From contig JAFYAT010000132.1 of assembly GCA_017540585.1 (NCBI GenBank), positions 1 through 37,965 of the forward strand: a DNA stretch of 37,965 nt, given 5' to 3'. Made by a program: the position numbers and the translations under genes. Positions 7,553 through 37,138 of the stretch are shown here, in pieces (the stretch's first letter is position 1; the number at the start of each line of letters is the position of its first letter). The notes under the pieces were generated by a model. It did not search any database, was not told where the DNA came from, and saw only the letters and a list, made by a program, of their open reading frames with translations. The DNA comes from Bacteroidaceae bacterium (lineage in GTDB: Bacteria; Bacteroidota; Bacteroidia; Bacteroidales; Bacteroidaceae).

Positions 7553-7574
7553 CTCTGGCACTGGCGTGCCAGAG
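7553..7574 (+). terminator. Hairpin directly after the antiporter stop codon
   Basis: A perfect 8-bp stem CTCTGGCA / TGCCAGAG with a 6-nt loop begins on the base after the stop codon. No T-tract follows, so it may protect the 3' end or slow polymerase rather than act as a classical terminator. Confidence 0.4.
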
Positions 7575-7582
7575 AGGTAACA

Positions 7583-7725
7583 GTTAAGAGTTAAAAGTTA
7601 AGAGTGTAAGTTGTGAGTTTGTAAGTTTGTGAGTTTTTGAGTTCGTGAGTTTTTGAGTTTTTAAGTTATTAGTTTTTAAGTTTTAAAGCTATTGGCTATT
7701 GAGCTTTAAAGCTATTGGCTACTGA
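7583..7725. repeat. RAGTTYKT octamer tract followed by a 21-bp direct repeat
   Basis: From about 7583 to 7685 the DNA is a degenerate tandem of octamers such as GAGTTTGT, AAGTTTGT, GAGTTCGT and GAGTTTTT. It is followed by two 21-bp copies (7682-7702 and 7705-7725) sharing TTTAAAGCTATTGGCTA and spaced 23 bp apart. A second octamer tract of the same kind lies at 15746-15855. The function is unknown. Confidence 0.6.
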
Positions 7726-7813
7726 ACTTGTGAACACATCTCAGTTAACAAGAACTTACTGAAACAACTAAGATACACATTCGGACAATACAAGGACATA
7801 ATACATATAGACG

Positions 7814-7954: not shown

Positions 7955-8015
7955 CCAATCAAACATATTACTAATTACTCATTGCTCATTAGTCATTACA
8001 TATTACTCATTATGT
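7955..8015. repeat. ATTACTCATT-type simple-repeat tract
   Basis: Degenerate repeats built on ATTACT, ATTGCTC and ATTAGTC run up to and slightly into the 3' end of the HU-like gene. It is another of the octamer-like tract types in this window. Confidence 0.45.
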
Positions 8016-8635
8016 TTAAGGAAGTACACAAGCGATGGTCCGCTGCCGCTGGAGTCTATGCCAGTTGTGGAGACGCTTGCAGCAAACCGACGAAGCTCGA
8101 CTGATGCAGTAGTGCGTGAGAGACCAGTCAGGCGGACATAGTCGGATATGCGCATTATCTGGTGAGAGGACAGATAGTCACGAGCTGCATTGAGACGCTG
8201 CGGAAGGGTGAGACGGCATCGGTTGATGCGCGAAGTGTATCCTCGTACAAGCTTGCATTCGTGATTAAGTGCACTGACGAGCTTCTTGTCCGCACGGTAG
8301 TTCACGTCTCGTATTATGATGCTTGTCGCGTTCCTCTTGGTCGTGCCTTCCATGTCCTCCACGGTCTTGTCCTTGTCCACACCTAATGACATGCTGAAAC
8401 ATCCGAGACCATCAATTGTGACACTGAATCCCTGACGCATCAGCTCCACAATAGCTTCGGTCATGCGATGTATGGTCATTGCCGCAACGCCTTCCGACAG
8501 ACCACGCAAAGCCATCTGCCTTAACAGGTCCTTGTGTGTCATATTGCCTCGTGTCTCGATGCGATAGTAACACTTCTTCTCTCCCTTGTGGTGGATGTCT
8601 GGCATCTCCTGCTTGATGTACTTTATCATAATCAT
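8003..8635 (-). CDS. HU-family (HU-HIG type) DNA-binding protein
   Basis: The 210-residue protein has an HU-like fold in residues about 1-125, of the divergent Bacteroidales HU-HIG type (PF18291), with TRGNMTHKDLLRQMALRGLSEGVA, a central VTIDGLGCFSMSLG segment and a basic arm (KRNATSIIIRDVNYR). Residues about 145-205 look like a helix-turn-helix (ISDYVRLTGLSRTTASVELRRF). It is expected to bind and bend chromosomal DNA as a nucleoid or regulatory protein; targets are unknown. Two starts are possible (Met1 or Met3); the longer is given. The gene is preceded by a long leader that contains four 21-bp hairpin repeats, so autoregulation through its own leader is conceivable but unproven. Confidence 0.8.
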   Translation of the reverse strand: MIMIKYIKQEMPDIHHKGEKKCYYRIETRGNMTHKDLLRQMALRGLSEGVAAMTIHRMTEAIVELMRQGFSVTIDGLGCFSMSLGVDKDKTVEDMEGTTKRNATSIIIRDVNYRADKKLVSALNHECKLVRGYTSRINRCRLTLPQRLNAARDYLSSHQIMRISDYVRLTGLSRTTASVELRRFAASVSTTGIDSSGSGPSLVYFLKHNE

Positions 8636-8674: not shown

Positions 8675-8882
8675 TGTAACTAATGTAAGTTACTGACATA
8701 ACCAATAGAAAGTTCTGCGGTAGTTGATATTACTTGTTCGGCAAGTTGTGAACCATCGTTCACAACTTGCGAACGAAGGTTCGGAACTTGTGAACCTTGG
8801 TTCGCAAGTTGTGGGCTACTGCCCAAAACTTGTCTGATAAGTATTCTTCGTTGATTGGCGAAGTATTGTTGACTATCAAACA
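8675..8882. repeat. Composite 21/22-bp periodic repeat array (copy 1)
   Basis: The core is four adjoining 21-bp units at 8747-8767, 8768-8788, 8789-8809 and 8810-8830. Each holds a small hairpin with a 4-base centre. Three have GAAC-N4-GTTC; the fourth has GGGC-N4-GCCC, so both arms have changed together. On the left, three looser 22-bp units run 8675-8740. On the right, AAGTATT recurs at 8839 and 8861, again 22 bp apart. The array lies in the predicted 5' leader of the HU-like gene. Confidence 0.75.
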
Positions 8883-8897
8883 AATTTGTTTCAGTTG

Positions 8898-8929
8898 CAA
8901 ATGTACTTTTTATTGGTGAGACGCACAAA
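8898..8929 (-). promoter_or_regulatory. Promoter of the HU-like gene
   Basis: On the minus strand, TTTG (8929-8926), a 20-bp spacer and TACATTTG (8905-8898) match the Bacteroidetes consensus at all fixed positions. The start near 8891 gives a leader of about 255 nt that includes the whole 21-bp hairpin array. Confidence 0.7.
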
Positions 8930-15746: not shown

Positions 15747-15855
15747 TGAGTTTGTAAGTTTTTAAGTTCGTGAGTTTTTAAGTTTTTTAGTTCTCGCGGA
15801 TTTAGAGTGCTTAAGTTTTTAAGTTTGTAAGTTCTTAAGTTTTTGAGTTCTTGCT
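15746..15855. repeat. RAGTTYKT octamer tract (second copy)
   Basis: A run of degenerate octamers (GAGTTTGT, AAGTTTTT, AAGTTCGT and similar) begins next to the DUF6089 stop codon. It is of the same type as the tract at 7583. It separates the DUF6089 gene from uppS. Confidence 0.6.
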
Positions 15856-32088: not shown

Positions 32089-33099
32089 ATGAACAGAAAT
32101 TTACTAATCATTTTGATGGCTGCACTCATGAGTGGCAGCCTTAATGTCTATGCCCAAACAGTGGGTATAGAATACACTTCGGAACTACAGACAAACTTCA
32201 AGGGTGACAACAACTACGTCAATCTTCTACGTCTCAATGCAGAACTGCCATTGTCAGATAAGGTACGACTCAGAGCATCAACCATCAGTTCTGCCAAGAG
32301 CAATCCAGAGTCTATTGCCAATGACATCCAGACATTCTCCAACATAGAGATAGATAACCTCGCACTCGGACTATCCATTGCTGCCATAGAGTGGGACATT
32401 GACGAGCACAACTCAATACTTGCTGGTGTACATCATGTCAATGAGGACTGCTTTGCAAGTGATGTCACATCACTCTTCACCAATAGTTCATGTGGCATCT
32501 ACCCTACTCTTTCGAGCAATTATCCTATTGCCAACTATCCTGTGGCGTCACTTGGAATACACTTCAAACATGACGATGAGCACTTCGGCTTTGTCGCAGC
32601 ATTATACAATGGTGTAGGTTACAACCACTTCTGGGGACGTGAAAATGCGTTCCGCTTCTGCCCTAACAGCGATGGTATCTTCACCATTACACAGGGCGAA
32701 TACAAATATCGCGGTAGCCATTACTTTCTCGGTGCTTGTCTCCACTATGGCGAACTTGACGACATAGAAGGCAAGAAGACACGCACTTCACTCTGGACTT
32801 ACGCAGAGCAGAAAGTGTCAAACACACTTACACTTATTGGTGGCTACTCACACGCATTCCACTCAAGCAGCTACTGCCGTGACTTTGCTGGCATTGGTGG
32901 AAAACTCGACATTGGAAAAGCAGAACTTGGACTCTTCAGCGACTATGCCCACTTCAATGATGCAGACGAATGGGCAACAGAATTGACATGCAAGTTCCCT
33001 TTAACAGAGCACACTTATCTGCAACCTACCATTCACTTCATTTCTCAAGAAAGCAATCAACGCATCATTGGTCTTCTTCGCTTCGGAATTGAGTACTAA
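32089..33099 (+). CDS. Porin-like outer-membrane beta-barrel protein
   Basis: The start at 32089 gives 336 residues with a good signal peptide ending in VYAQ (residue 23); the 25 residues before it belong to an untranslated region. The mature part alternates strands and polar loops across its whole length (NLLRLNAELPLSDKVRLRAS, FGFVAALYNGVGYNHFWG, SHYFLGACLHYG, LTLIGGYSHAF) and ends in LLRFGIEY, as barrel proteins do. It resembles OprB-like or other small porins but has no firm family here. Loops contain several His and Cys. It diverges from the metal operon, so a shared regulation and a role in metal or nutrient entry is possible. Confidence 0.75.
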   Translation: MNRNLLIILMAALMSGSLNVYAQTVGIEYTSELQTNFKGDNNYVNLLRLNAELPLSDKVRLRASTISSAKSNPESIANDIQTFSNIEIDNLALGLSIAAIEWDIDEHNSILAGVHHVNEDCFASDVTSLFTNSSCGIYPTLSSNYPIANYPVASLGIHFKHDDEHFGFVAALYNGVGYNHFWGRENAFRFCPNSDGIFTITQGEYKYRGSHYFLGACLHYGELDDIEGKKTRTSLWTYAEQKVSNTLTLIGGYSHAFHSSSYCRDFAGIGGKLDIGKAELGLFSDYAHFNDADEWATELTCKFPLTEHTYLQPTIHFISQESNQRIIGLLRFGIEY

Positions 33100-33154
33100 C
33101 TTCCGATGATGATGTAAGTTATTTAGCTGCACATAAATAAAACATGCTTAATCA

Positions 33155-33186
33155 CTTGCTGTTTCCACAAATATAAATTATTTTTG
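33155..33186 (+). promoter_or_regulatory. Possible promoter of the pectinesterase gene
   Basis: CTTG (33155-33158), a 20-bp spacer and TATTTTTG (33179-33186) fit the consensus with one -33 mismatch. If used, the leader would be about 325 nt and would contain the entire 33.2-kb repeat array. Confidence 0.4.
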
Positions 33187-33188
33187 CA

Positions 33189-33489
33189 ATGGAAACAAAA
33201 TTCGTTAGACACGGATAAAAAGTTCGCTATACCACGATAAAAAGTTCGTTAGTAGCCGATAAAAAATTATTCACAAGCCTTTGAACATTTGTTCAAAGCC
33301 CTTGAACGATTGTTCAAAGGCTTTGAATATTCATTCAGAGCCTCTGAACGAACGTTCAAGGATTTCTGAACAATTTTATATCACGATGTAGCAAAGTTTT
33401 TATCGAGCTACAGCAAACTTTATATACGGATGTAACGATTTTTTTACGTGGATACGGCATTTTTTTACAGTCGCATAGCGAACTTTAAT
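33189..33489. repeat. Composite symmetric 21/22-bp repeat array (copy 2)
   Basis: The array has three parts. Four 22-bp units at 33189-33276 each carry an A-tract followed by TTCG-like bases (GATAAAAAGTTCG in the best two). Four 21-bp hairpin units follow at 33280-33363, with GAAC-N4-GTTC cores (one is GAAT-N4-ATTC, with both arms changed). After a 16-nt link, five 22-bp units at 33380-33489 carry T-tracts and AGCGAACTTT-like bases, the reverse complement of the left theme. The A- and T-tracts repeat every two helical turns, so the DNA is probably curved. It precedes the pectinesterase gene. Confidence 0.8.
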
Positions 33490-33518
33490 TAGTAGCAACT
33501 GAATAAACTTACAGGATT

Positions 33519-34826
33519 ATGGGAAGGATAATATCAGTGATAATCATAATGATGATGTGCATGGCAAGGACTTATGCACAGAGGGAACGATGGGTGTATG
33601 ACTTCGTAGTTCCCGATAGTGGTAGTTTCACTGATGCCATTCACAGAGCTAACGCAAGGGAGGATATGCAGAGGCGTTTCCGCATATTCATCAAGTCGGA
33701 CTATTATATCGTAAAGGGAGATGGCGATACGATAACAACGGTAGAGAACGGCGATACAGTACGCTTCCCAAGTCCTATGACTATACTCAATGCTCCAAAC
33801 ACGTCTATCATAGGCGAGAACTGGAAAGACACAAAGATTGTCAACATTCCTCGACACGAAGGTATCAGCATAACATCAACGCTTTATCTCAACCGTGCTG
33901 ACAGCACATATATTCAAGATATTGAACTGTGGTGCAACTACAAGAATGATGCCAAGGCTTTTGCCAACCGTTCAGTGGCTCTCAACGAGAAGCGTTGCAG
34001 GGGTAATATTCTTAAGAACGTGATGCTGACAAGTACACAGGACACATATTATACGAACAATGAGGGCACGACTTACCTCGAAAACTGCAAGATAAACGGT
34101 ACGGTTGATTTCATCTGTGGTGGCGGAACTGTATTTTTCAACGACTGTGAACTCACAATGCTATCACGTGGCAAGGCTGGAAGCAAGGACATCATAACAG
34201 CAGCAGCCACAGAAAATAAACTGAAGTTTGGTTATGTGTTCAATAACTGCACCATCAATGGATCAGAAGAGCAGAACAACAAATACTTCCTTGGACGTCC
34301 TTGGAAGAATGCTCCGCAAGTGGTGTGGCTCAATACACGCATGAACATTGTACCATGCGAACAAGCATGGCGAGATATGCACGGAACACTTCCTCGACTG
34401 TTTGCCGAATATAATAGCCATACAGCAGATGGCACAACGATAGACACAAGCAACAGAAAGAAGACGTACAAGAACACGAAGAACAAGGAAGTAACAGTTA
34501 AGTTCAATGGAACACTAACTGATAAGGAAGCCAACAATTACACAATAGATAAGGTTCTCGGCAACTGGAATCCGCAGGAGAGTTGCCAACTTGTTCTGGC
34601 TCCCGAACTTACAATCAAGGGACGCAGGACTCTGCAATGGAAGGATGTTCCCGATGCTTACTGCTATGCCATACTCATAGACGGCGATGTGGTTACCTTC
34701 ACCACCAAGAACGAATATGTTATTCCTGATGACACCGAAGAAGGTGCATGCTTCTCTATCCGCTGTGCCAACTGGTATGGAGGACTCGGAACAGCATCCA
34801 ACGAAGTGGTCTATCCGAACCGATAG
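33519..34826 (+). CDS. Pectinesterase (CE8 family)
   Basis: The enzyme removes methyl esters from pectin so that lyases can act. The 435-residue protein has a signal peptide ending in TYAQ (residue 21) and a right-handed beta-helix. The CE8 catalytic residues are visible: Asp175 in QDTYY, Asp197 in GTVDFI and Arg260 with Trp262 in LGRPW. Residues about 350-435 form a beta-sandwich tail (LQWKDVPDAYCYAILIDGD) resembling a fibronectin-type module. It is not next to SusC/D genes. It follows an unusual 301-bp repeat array and is ended by a strong hairpin. The carbohydrate-binding protein at 25114 may bind the same polymer. Confidence 0.93.
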   Translation: MGRIISVIIIMMMCMARTYAQRERWVYDFVVPDSGSFTDAIHRANAREDMQRRFRIFIKSDYYIVKGDGDTITTVENGDTVRFPSPMTILNAPNTSIIGENWKDTKIVNIPRHEGISITSTLYLNRADSTYIQDIELWCNYKNDAKAFANRSVALNEKRCRGNILKNVMLTSTQDTYYTNNEGTTYLENCKINGTVDFICGGGTVFFNDCELTMLSRGKAGSKDIITAAATENKLKFGYVFNNCTINGSEEQNNKYFLGRPWKNAPQVVWLNTRMNIVPCEQAWRDMHGTLPRLFAEYNSHTADGTTIDTSNRKKTYKNTKNKEVTVKFNGTLTDKEANNYTIDKVLGNWNPQESCQLVLAPELTIKGRRTLQWKDVPDAYCYAILIDGDVVTFTTKNEYVIPDDTEEGACFSIRCANWYGGLGTASNEVVYPNR

Positions 34827-34859: not shown

Positions 34860-34909
34860 TTTGACCATTACGCATTTGCTTACTGTAAAGCAAACACGTA
34901 ATGGTCAAA
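34860..34909. terminator. Bidirectional terminator between pectinesterase and acyl-CoA synthetase genes
   Basis: Arms 34860-34872 and 34897-34909 (TTTGACCATTACG) are fully complementary, with a second inner stem TTTGCTT / AAGCAAA. The plus side continues into a T-rich stretch (TTCTTAACTCTTTATTTT) and the minus side into CTTTTCTTCT. It separates two convergent genes. Confidence 0.7.
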
Positions 34910-34962
34910 TTCTTAACTCTTTATTTTAGATTCTTAATTTCTCAAATCTTAATTCTTAAATC

Positions 34963-36636
34963 TTATTTTTTTTCTTTTCCCCTGATTTCCGCCCTGCGTA
35001 TCTTACCGCTGATGGTCTTAGGCAGTTCAGTTACGAACTCTACGACACGAGGATACTTGTATGGAGCTGTCTCATGCTTCACGTGATCCTGAAGTTCCTT
35101 GATGAGTTGCTTACGCTGTGCATCAGAATCGGCAATCATGTCACGATACTTAGGAGTGAGCACAATGGTAGCCTTGATAATCTGTCCACGTATTGGGTCA
35201 GGCACAGCTGTGATGGCACATTCCACAACGGATGGATGAGTCATGAGGGCTGACTCTACCTCGAAAGGACCGACACGATAACCAGAAGTCTTGATGACAT
35301 CGTCCGAACGGCTGACATACCAGAAATATCCATCCTCATCGTAATACACGATATCGCCAGTATAGTACAATCCATTCTGTATGCGTTTCTCCGTCATCTC
35401 CTCATTACGATAGTAACACTTAAATAGACCGAGAGGCTTTGTCTCGCCAACCTTGATTACAAGTTCGCCATGCACCATTGGTGCTACGTGCTTGCCCTCT
35501 TCATCCACCACGTCGATATTGAACTGAGCGTTACGTCTTCCCATAGCTCCAGCCTTAGGCTTGACCCAAGGATATGTGCCCACAACAAGTGTGGTCTCTG
35601 TCTGTCCGTATGACTCGTATATCTTGATGCCTGTCTTCTGTTCCCACTCATCAAAAACGCTTGGAGAGAGAGCCTCGCCAGCCGTTGTACACCATCTGAG
35701 CGAAGACAGATTGTATTTAGTCACATCTTCAAGCAGAAGCATACGGTAGATGGTAGGAGGTGCACAGAATGATGTGATACGATGATTCTGCAATACATCA
35801 AGCAGCTCCGATGCCTCGAACTTACCCTCATAGTCATATACGAAGACCGTAGCACCACAAATCATCTGTCCGTAGAACTTGCCCCATACAGCCTTACCCC
35901 AACCTGTGTCGGCAAGAGTAAGATGTACATCACCATCATGCAGATTGTGCCAGAAGCGTGCTGTGATGATATGTGCAAGAGGATATGAATAGTCGTGCAT
36001 CACCATCTTTGGCTCGCCCGTCGTTCCACTCGTGAAGTAGAGGAGGAAGTTATCCGTAACGCTATTGCGCTTAGGAGCAACGAAAGGCTCAGCCTCAGCC
36101 AGTCCACGATTATAGTCGTACCATCCATTAGGAACAGAAGGACCAACAGAGATACAATGACGCAACATTGGTGAGAATCGTCGTGCTCTTTGGATGTGCT
36201 TGAGTACAATCTGGTCACCACAAGCAATAATGCAACATATACCAGCCATGTGGCAACGGTAGATGATATCCTTGTCTGTAAGCATGTGTGTGGCAGGGAT
36301 AGCCACAGCACCAATCTTATGGAGTGCAACCATCGTAATCCACCATTCAACCCTACGCTTGAGGATAAGCATAACCCTATCACCCTTATCTATACCTATA
36401 CTCATAAGGAATGATGCACACTGGTCGCTCAGATGCTTCAGTGCGCTATATGTGATATGTCTTTCCTCCCCTTTGTCGTTAGTCCACAAGATGGCTTCCT
36501 TATCAGGATATTCTGTTGCATATCTATCCACAACATCATATCCGAAGTTGAAGTCATCAGGAATGTTTACCTTATAGTTTGCGAGGAAATCTTCGTATGA
36601 GTCAAAATCCGTTTTTGCAAGAAATCTTTCTATCAT
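34963..36636 (-). CDS. AMP-binding acyl-CoA synthetase (acetyl/medium-chain type)
   Basis: The enzyme activates a carboxylic acid with ATP and joins it to CoA. From the start at 36636 it has 557 residues with all class motifs: YFTSGTTGEPKMV (AMP loop), YESYGQTE, YYTGD, SRSDDVIKTSGYRVGP (hinge) and PKTISGKIRR with the catalytic Lys near the end. It is closest to the acetate/medium-chain acyl-CoA synthetases that are frequent in Bacteroidetes; the acid used is unknown. An ATG at 36666 overlaps the predicted -7 box and was rejected. It stands alone; the usual cupin regulator gene is not adjacent in this window. Confidence 0.92.
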   Translation of the reverse strand: MIERFLAKTDFDSYEDFLANYKVNIPDDFNFGYDVVDRYATEYPDKEAILWTNDKGEERHITYSALKHLSDQCASFLMSIGIDKGDRVMLILKRRVEWWITMVALHKIGAVAIPATHMLTDKDIIYRCHMAGICCIIACGDQIVLKHIQRARRFSPMLRHCISVGPSVPNGWYDYNRGLAEAEPFVAPKRNSVTDNFLLYFTSGTTGEPKMVMHDYSYPLAHIITARFWHNLHDGDVHLTLADTGWGKAVWGKFYGQMICGATVFVYDYEGKFEASELLDVLQNHRITSFCAPPTIYRMLLLEDVTKYNLSSLRWCTTAGEALSPSVFDEWEQKTGIKIYESYGQTETTLVVGTYPWVKPKAGAMGRRNAQFNIDVVDEEGKHVAPMVHGELVIKVGETKPLGLFKCYYRNEEMTEKRIQNGLYYTGDIVYYDEDGYFWYVSRSDDVIKTSGYRVGPFEVESALMTHPSVVECAITAVPDPIRGQIIKATIVLTPKYRDMIADSDAQRKQLIKELQDHVKHETAPYKYPRVVEFVTELPKTISGKIRRAEIRGKEKK

Positions 36637-36797: not shown

Positions 36798-36836
36798 CAG
36801 CCATTAAACAGTTGTTAAACGACTGTTTAATGGCTG
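36798..36836. repeat. Perfect 15-bp hairpin (family A)
   Basis: Arms 36798-36812 and 36822-36836 (CAGCCATTAAACAGT) are fully complementary around a 9-nt loop. The stem is related to those at 11499 and 23106 (ACRGCSATTARAC core). It lies in the spacer between the acyl-CoA synthetase promoter and the LytTR gene. Confidence 0.6.
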
Positions 36837-36852
36837 CTAAACGCTTCGTAAT

Positions 36853-37050
36853 AAGAAGCAACAAAGAGCCACCATTGCTTTAGGGCATTATGACTAAAGC
36901 TTTCGTTCACTTCCGTCAAAGCTTTGAACGGATTCGACAGAAGCTTCTACACAATGCATTAGAAGCTTTTATGAAAACTGGCAAAAAAGTTGAGAACTTT
37001 GAATCAAATGTTGCGCATCAATAGCAACAAAGTCGAGGACTTTGGAGAGA
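36853..37050. repeat. 22-bp periodic array with AAGCTT (copy 3)
   Basis: AAGCTT occurs at 36897, 36919, 36941 and 36963, exactly 22 bp apart each time. The period continues in weaker form to about 37050, with AAAAGTTGAG, AATGTTGCG and AAAGTCGAGG starts, and perhaps backwards to 36853. Several units contain short inverted repeats around AAGCTT. It lies just downstream of the second LytTR gene. The period links it to the arrays at 8675 and 33189, though the sequence theme differs. Confidence 0.65.
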
Positions 37051-37095
37051 TTGACGCGTGTCGATGAAAAGTGCTCACGCTGCGTCAATAAAAAA

Positions 37096-37138
37096 CTGAC
37101 GTAGCGTCAACCAAAAATTGACGCTACGCCAGCCTTTT
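37096..37138. terminator. Bidirectional terminator, second copy of the TGACGTAGCGTCAA stem
   Basis: Arms 37096-37110 and 37118-37132 pair with one mismatch, which becomes G-U in a minus-strand RNA, matching the minus gene upstream. Six T follow on each strand. The stem is the same as at 23039. A partial third half-site (GCTGCGTCAAT) lies at about 37079. Confidence 0.75.

Follow-up and report, generated by a model that had tools for sequence, protein, structure and literature searches.

A repeat array upstream of a pectinesterase gene in a Bacteroidaceae genome belongs to a family of multi-dyad arrays that, in our assessment, quite likely serve as operator and anchoring sites for cognate HU-HIG proteins with a C-terminal winged helix, acting as DNA. 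Comparison across loci and genomes supports a common layout, linkage to the HU-HIG genes, covariation between protein and site, set promoter spacing and, where tested, conserved position.

Anatomy of the array

The array lies in the spacer 33099-33519 of the window, by which we mean the whole stretch of 37,965 nucleotides that was analysed. The succession of A-tract, hairpin and T-tract units described in the earlier note was confirmed by sequence reading, self-match and shuffles, and occupies 33189-33489 (Table 1). Over this interval, self-match peaks at lag 22 (0.52) and lag 21 (0.43), compared with 0.19 at lags 15-17. The spacer has a four-dyad score (the number of complementary pairs over four dyads of 17 bp) of 25 out of 32, and the highest score among 1000 dinucleotide shuffles is 22. 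The unit first proposed, GAAC-N4-GTTC, is present as four joints starting at 33283, 33304, 33325 and 33346, but the better unit is the dyad RTTC-N9-GAAY (17 bp), of which there are five rather than four, the two outermost having N10 (18 bp). The array therefore has the layout of at least four dyads of about 17 bp at a 21-bp period. A two-unit pattern with up to two mismatches matches the window five times, three of them in this array (shuffle mean 0.18, maximum 3), and at a threshold of 22 the window contains one further array only, at 8736-8837. On reading the sequence, CRISPR-like spacers are absent, the 17-18-bp dyads being joined by 4 bp.

Table 1 Features of the window, with strand where assigned.
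Feature	Position	Strand	Description
Predicted -7 box of the HU-HIG gene	8898-8905	-	TACATTTG; 68 bp before its array
HU-HIG-linked RTTC-type array	8736-8837	.	Dyads 8736-8753, 8758-8774, 8779-8795, 8800-8816; degenerate 8821-8837
HU-HIG and winged-helix-like protein gene	8003-8635	-	PF18291, E=1e-11; HU domain and C-terminal part
Predicted Bacteroidetes-type promoter	33156-33186	+	TTG 33156-33158, 20 bp, -7 box TATTTTTG 33179-33186
Left flank	33197-33268	+	A-tract units of ~22 bp; A-runs at 33197, 33217, 33239, 33261
Core	33269-33371	.	Five dyads RTTC-N9/10-GAAY, period 21, 4-bp joints
Core dyads	33269-33286 (18 bp), 33291-33307, 33312-33328, 33333-33349, 33354-33371 (18 bp)
Right flank	33374-33489	-	T-tract units; by eye, the inverse of those in the left flank
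Right-flank T-runs	33374, 33397, 33419, 33439, 33460, 33484
Pectinesterase gene	33519-34826	+	PF01095, E=3.6e-25; downstream of the 33189 array

Chance low-complexity drift, or a plain minisatellite, could be entertained for an AT-rich spacer in a window that holds other tandem repeats. We regard it as next to impossible in view of the score of 25 against the shuffle maximum, the recurrence of this layout at other loci and in other genomes, and the presence of exactly four units in 34 of the 40 arrays of two genomes, G033 and G013. The other AT-rich tandem repeats (7573-7729, 15747-15849 and 34908-34969) have 7-, 8- or 23/24-bp periods (e.g. AGTTTTTA, AATTCTT) and are of a different type. Two further short palindromic repeats, one at 36805-36855 (TTAAAC..GTTTAA) and one with a 22-bp period at 37082-37130 (GCGTCAA..TTGACGC), score under 22 as four-dyad arrays and may be remnants of other array sets.

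Occurrence across genomes

The earlier note held that absence of such arrays from related genomes would point to drift; instead, relatives proved to carry them. Two further copies were recovered with a 361-bp stretch, one on contig C145 of the same genome and the other in a relative (G029); both keep the three-part layout although their gene neighbourhoods differ. The two-unit pattern is present in 12 of 41 genomes, with most forward matches in G008 (21), G020 (16), G010 (14) and G011 (11), while single matches in G021, G022, G040 and G044 are perhaps due to chance; the reversed control gave one forward match in G000 and four in G046. Inner array sequence is genome-specific among these matches. 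An RTTC pattern occurs in 15 of 61 genomes, including G033 (26 forward matches) and G059 (12), with those in G021, G022 and G044 probably due to chance and three matches of the reversed control, all in G046. Since G006, G016, G026 and G029 have two matches each, corresponding to about one array per genome, dispersal is not universal. Flanking A-tracts are visible by eye on copies of G000, G006, G008, G016 and G029, and copies of G010, G011 and G020 consist of the core only.

In named genomes, a three-joint pattern matched at least 119 stretches, many of them in Prevotella/Segatella, Parabacteroides distasonis, Bacteroides fluxus and Phocaeicola, and among the matches listed those in other phyla appear by eye to be tandem repeats or chance. 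Repeats of a Planctomycete, Nostoc and lake Bacteroidetes (L084, L091, L116, L126) have GAAC/GTTC-like joints at 21-bp steps and appear by eye to be plain tandem repeats. A phage origin was also considered and rejected: 23 viral stretches match the pattern, none contains an HU-HIG gene within the stretch, and by eye they are other repeats. Several arrays lie within ~60 bases of contig ends (G033 C5, C8, C49, C84, C101 and C129; G013 C61 and C63), and arrays so placed may break assemblies and hide cognate genes.

Linkage to HU-HIG genes

When genes neighbouring the arrays were clustered, the largest cluster comprised four genes from as many genomes, each with its start next to an array, and the other clusters, of two or three members, mostly reflected loci common to G010 and G011. 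All four proteins exceed the PF18291 (HU-HIG) cut-off and match TIGR01201, one of them above its cut-off, and they share a further conserved C-terminal part with a predicted winged-helix-like motif. By sequence, the nearest solved structures to HU-HIG are HU and IHF, whose clades are reportedly the subject of a paper by Burroughs and colleagues. Among open-licence PMC papers, the term 'HU-HIG domain' was found in PMC11035120 alone, where it serves only to name a gene. A profile identified 15 distinct HU-HIG genes among the collected array loci, all 15 with the array directly upstream of the start; for the 11 in named contigs, among the matches listed, the start is 47-126 bp from the core.

HU-HIG protein matches, which include HU genes without the C-terminal part, were found in 38 of 61 genomes. 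As a converse test, the 400 bp upstream of full-length HU-HIG genes were scored blind to sequence. A score of at least 22 was reached upstream of 27 of the 51 genes and at least 20 upstream of 38, with 13 below 20, whereas control HU genes lacking a full match gave 0/16 and 2/16 at these thresholds and shuffles 0.1% and 2.1%. The best period was 21 for every full-length gene scoring at least 20. The reading frames of the scored genes and the regions downstream of them gave 14-19, apart from one downstream region at 21. The dyad sequence varies between HU-HIG gene types, e.g. TTTTCAAAGTTTGAAAA or AAATCACTGAGTGATTT. As the profile was built from array-linked proteins, the test favours their kin, yet it found many arrays with other half-sites. 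It leaves out partial matches at contig ends, weaker matches of G059, L256 (a duplicate of L193) and L205 (no DNA upstream); three of the 16 controls are partial HU-HIG matches (L216, L218, L219), with L249 unscored, and L201, whose score of 20 is probably due to chance, is kept in the converse, promoter-spacing and class counts and excluded from the specificity analyses. Unit delimitation in linked arrays forces at least four units per array, so that unit count is not independent there.

The window itself encodes an HU-HIG protein of 210 residues (8003-8635) that scores 45.4 bits against PF18291, over the cut-off of 26.2, and 63.9 bits against TIGR01201, under the cut-off of 68.6. The array beside its gene has a four-dyad score of 22, which 3 of 1000 shuffles of that spacer also reach. 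Its outer half-site bases, RTTC, are those of the 33189 array, and the inner bases differ. At the DNA level, the 33189 array is closest to the one linked to the HU-HIG gene of G029, with 75% identity over 144 bp, so that its half-site agrees with linked HU-HIG arrays both in its own genome and in a relative. The product of 8003-8635 is likely to be the cognate or a near-cognate protein of the 33189 array. No cognate gene was found in three genomes with RTTC arrays (G010, G011 and G020).

The genome of the window (G000) contains three full-length HU-HIG-winged-helix genes on contigs C24, C58 and C89, with upstream repeats of AAATCACT (score 26), GTTCACAA (score 22) and a by-eye GTAC-like type (score 19), respectively. 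These different half-sites suggest separate array sets in one cell.

Covariation of protein and site

Across 47 arrays, half-site similarity correlates with winged-helix identity (rho 0.32) more than with HU-domain identity (0.18), and the partial correlations are 0.29 and 0.08. Among 36 non-redundant pairs, the top residue-base pair couples alignment residue 173 with half-site base 4 (z 8.2; 95% of permutation maxima below 5.6), and the largest summed score belongs to residue 176 (31.3), followed by residue 6 (29.9). Residues 173 and 176 of the alignment, both in the presumed recognition helix, correspond to 175 and 178 of the 210-residue window protein. In that numbering, T at 175 goes with C at base 4 in 25/25 cases and S with T in 9/11, and S or E at 178 goes with T at base 2 in 32/33, as against 4/14 for other residues. 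Since HU-domain residues 96, 6, 81 and 35 also score highly with base 1 (z 7.2-7.9), shared ancestry contributes and the covariation is partly phylogenetic.

A TTT-type pattern, derived from the arrays of genes that encode an 'AE' (or 'AD') helix, occurs in 12 of 61 genomes and has no reversed-pattern match. All eight genomes in which an AE/AD-helix gene was read contain it, with 6-20 forward matches each, of which the linked array accounts for at most three; so do 4 of the 53 others, with 2-5 matches, the weak HU-HIG matches of the 61 genomes having been read in part. In two composite arrays, L315 (G010:C4:45850-46450) and L331 (G011:C35:73850-74450), TTTC-type dyads directly abut dyads of the RTTC type, which could reflect a meeting of two HU-HIG specificities or the exchange of one.

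Promoter geometry and action as DNA

The Bacteroidetes -7 box has the consensus TAnnTTTG. Such a box follows the array in 31 of 48 linked arrays, at 22-23 bp (6), 32-38 (17), 43-44 (4), 55-56 (2), 66 (1) or 18 (1); it precedes the array in eight, at 23-25 bp (6) or 68 bp (2), and none is in range in nine. At these spacings, a list drawn from the same data, TAnnTTTG is found in 32 of the 48 linked arrays, compared with 1.4 on average and at most 6 over 500 random placements. By this comparison, linked arrays appear to keep set spacings to HU-HIG promoters. The suggestion of a multi-site operator in the earlier note is supported by this spacing and by array sequence tracking the HU-HIG recognition helix.

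An RNA leader, whose transcript would fold into four or five hairpins acting at the RNA level, had also been proposed, and could appeal to the strength of the dyads and to a -7 box just before the array at 33189 and in the 8/48 linked arrays, which would hence be transcribed. The more frequent position of the box, after the array, argues against it, as does the behaviour of the paired arms in 118 arrays. Here neither the dyad ends (odds ratio 0.83, p 0.37) nor the joint ends (odds ratio 0.68, p 0.10) covary, and inner pairs are complementary in 1161/1888 cases, a swap of arms among the units of an array giving 1188 +/- 12. The concerted change of arms noted earlier thus holds for the four joints of the 33189 array and not across arrays. 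An excess of G.T over A.C is limited to arrays followed by the box (83 to 42), which the predicted promoter would not transcribe; the counts are 22 to 20 in those that would be transcribed and 20 to 20 in the remaining class. An Rfam search returned microRNA matches only, far under gathering scores. We therefore consider an RNA leader very improbable. Without arm covariation, the half-sites behave as independent copies of one DNA site. These counts, and those of the 105 dispersed arrays below, follow the manual removal of 35 loci that were taken on visual inspection for tandem repeats or chance matches (20 from other phyla and 15 from Bacteroidota, of which L163 and the own-genome array L069 may be real), with L010 unscored and identical arrays counted once.

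The pectinesterase locus

At 33189, the -7 box TATTTTTG, which we take to be one from the consensus above, is separated from the core by three to four 22-bp units and would place the transcription start near 33193. The promoter side of this array can be aligned with its counterparts at the HU-HIG genes of G029 and the window, and the pectinesterase start codon follows the last array unit by ~30 bp. As an HU-HIG-like promoter and array precede it, the pectinesterase gene is probably under the same control.

The earlier note had called for alignment of orthologous pectinesterase spacers. The 700 bp before the match start at 16 other pectinesterase loci (L392 left out) score 16-19 and contain no array, and a conserved pectinesterase element is rejected. 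This result would also be expected if an HU-HIG protein bound the 33189 array with no regulatory role at pectinesterase, whether the array were an anchoring site or a remnant from the loss of an HU-HIG gene that left its promoter and array in front of pectinesterase. Dispersed arrays lacking promoter spacing agree with this alternative, as does the nearest relative of the array being linked to the G029 HU-HIG gene, promoter side included. It is opposed by an intact promoter layout directed at pectinesterase, with the start codon close behind the last unit, and we judge it unlikely while giving it real weight. Our reading is that the 33189 array probably puts pectinesterase under an HU-HIG protein, or else marks the site of a lost HU-HIG gene. 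A curved architectural element, another of the roles suggested earlier, is possible given the phased A-tracts, the HU protein and the many copies without promoter spacing.

Dispersed arrays

Among 105 RTTC arrays away from the HU-HIG genes found, no fixed -7 box spacing was detected, and within 200 bp boxes directed into the array are outnumbered by those directed away from it (16 to 62). With neighbours called by a simple in-house script, 45 of these arrays lie between tandem, 21 between convergent and 17 between divergent genes, 15 are near stretch ends and 7 overlap short, doubtful reading frames. Repeated spacing was likewise not found in a set of 20 TTT-type arrays that includes two with scores of only 19-20. 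Neither set supports promoter control by every array, and the 105 dispersed arrays indicate that a single mechanism cannot account for them all.

High copy numbers in some genomes, together with genome-specific sequence, might suggest a mobile repeat (MITE or REP/REPIN-like) spread by transposition, with the HU-HIG gene as neighbour or host factor. As the 33189 array is palindromic overall, terminal inversion alone does not discriminate a MITE. However, one array is kept at a common locus in three species (G011, G033 and G013) despite diverged flanks, and at the counterpart locus of G010 the gap is larger than the array and shows no visible target duplication. Two loci were compared in this way; their copies differ by 21 and 42 bp, and transposition, for which an empty site with target duplication would speak, is unsupported at both. 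Five array pairs of G010 and G011 share neighbours, array sequence follows the recognition helix, and none of the 23 viral stretches carries an HU-HIG gene. We consequently hold a mobile repeat to be very improbable; where examined, the dispersed arrays appear to be vertically inherited and intergenic.

Unit number differs between genomes with and without a detected RTTC-type gene. In G033 and G013, which have one, 38 of 40 arrays contain at least four units and 34 exactly four, compared with four units kept in 13/35 arrays of G010 and G011, two genomes that have many loci in common and yielded no such gene; the genomes are incomplete and the arrays were taken from match lists. Unit loss in G010 and G011 fits decay after loss of the protein, and may represent one evolutionary event.

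Proposed mechanism and significance

From these comparisons we infer binding, bending, repression and a chromosomal role as follows. The winged helix would read the outer four bases of each half-dyad (RTTC at 33189), and four to five dyads, two helical turns apart, would load a row of protein on one face of the DNA. Phased A/T-tract units on both sides could extend the complex, probably via the HU domain, which may bend or bridge DNA. An array at set spacing to the promoter of its own gene would provide autoregulation of HU-HIG, while at 33189, just past the predicted transcription start, it could act as a roadblock before pectinesterase. The further copies, one to ~20 per genome depending on type and genome and mostly without promoter spacing, are probably anchoring or boundary sites, the most likely of several roles for the dispersed arrays.

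More tentatively, and as a proposal that may well prove wrong, a Bacteroidales chromosome could harbour several mutually orthogonal HU-winged-helix systems, each an autoregulated gene with up to ~20 dispersed four-dyad arrays co-evolving with the recognition helix, which jointly organise or partition the chromosome. This would constitute a new class of site-specific nucleoid system, with 33189 as one site and specificity switching at two helix residues.

HU proteins are usually seen as DNA binders with little sequence preference. A large HU-derived Bacteroidales family nevertheless seems to own private sequence-specific arrays with a readable protein-DNA code, different half-site sets within one genome and perhaps natural examples of a lost gene and a switched specificity. 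If this is true, one can test directly what a widespread DNA-binding family of gut bacteria with no assigned function does, and the family would be a source of orthogonal DNA-binding modules.

Comparison with known systems

The array-adjacent proteins belong to a known family, HU-HIG (PF18291, overlapping TIGR01201 HU_rel). At the level of titles and abstract starts in open-licence PMC, we recognised no description of an HU-HIG binding site, of the arrays, of how often these lie beside HU-HIG-winged-helix genes, or of the code.

Autoregulated site-specific regulators with multi-dyad operators exist, and the present system resembles them in keeping an array at a set distance from the promoter of its own gene, but differs in the many array copies elsewhere that lack promoter spacing. 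Chromosome-organising site sets such as ParB-parS and MatP-matS similarly combine one protein gene with dispersed specific sites, as seen here in many genomes. Unlike these, HU-HIG systems have several half-site sets within a single genome (in G016 and G000), four-dyad arrays, some of them A-tract-flanked, and a protein composed of HU and a winged helix. REP/BIME and REPIN-RAYT elements are dispersed intergenic palindromes tied to one gene, which is also true of the arrays; however, the gene here encodes an HU-HIG DNA-binding protein, the dyads are in tandem with a 21-bp period, and no sign of mobility was seen at the loci compared.

Within Bacteroidales, the BrickBuilt MITE of Porphyromonas gingivalis is intergenic, with 19 elements in one strain, and is built of tandem units, namely 23-nt direct repeats in 1 to 22.8 copies with insertion-sequence-like terminal inverted repeats; the main text of its description contains no word in 'palindrom-' (PMC4596501). 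As far as that text describes it, BrickBuilt is like the arrays in its Bacteroidales host, intergenic site and tandem units, and differs from them in unit, copy number and ends.
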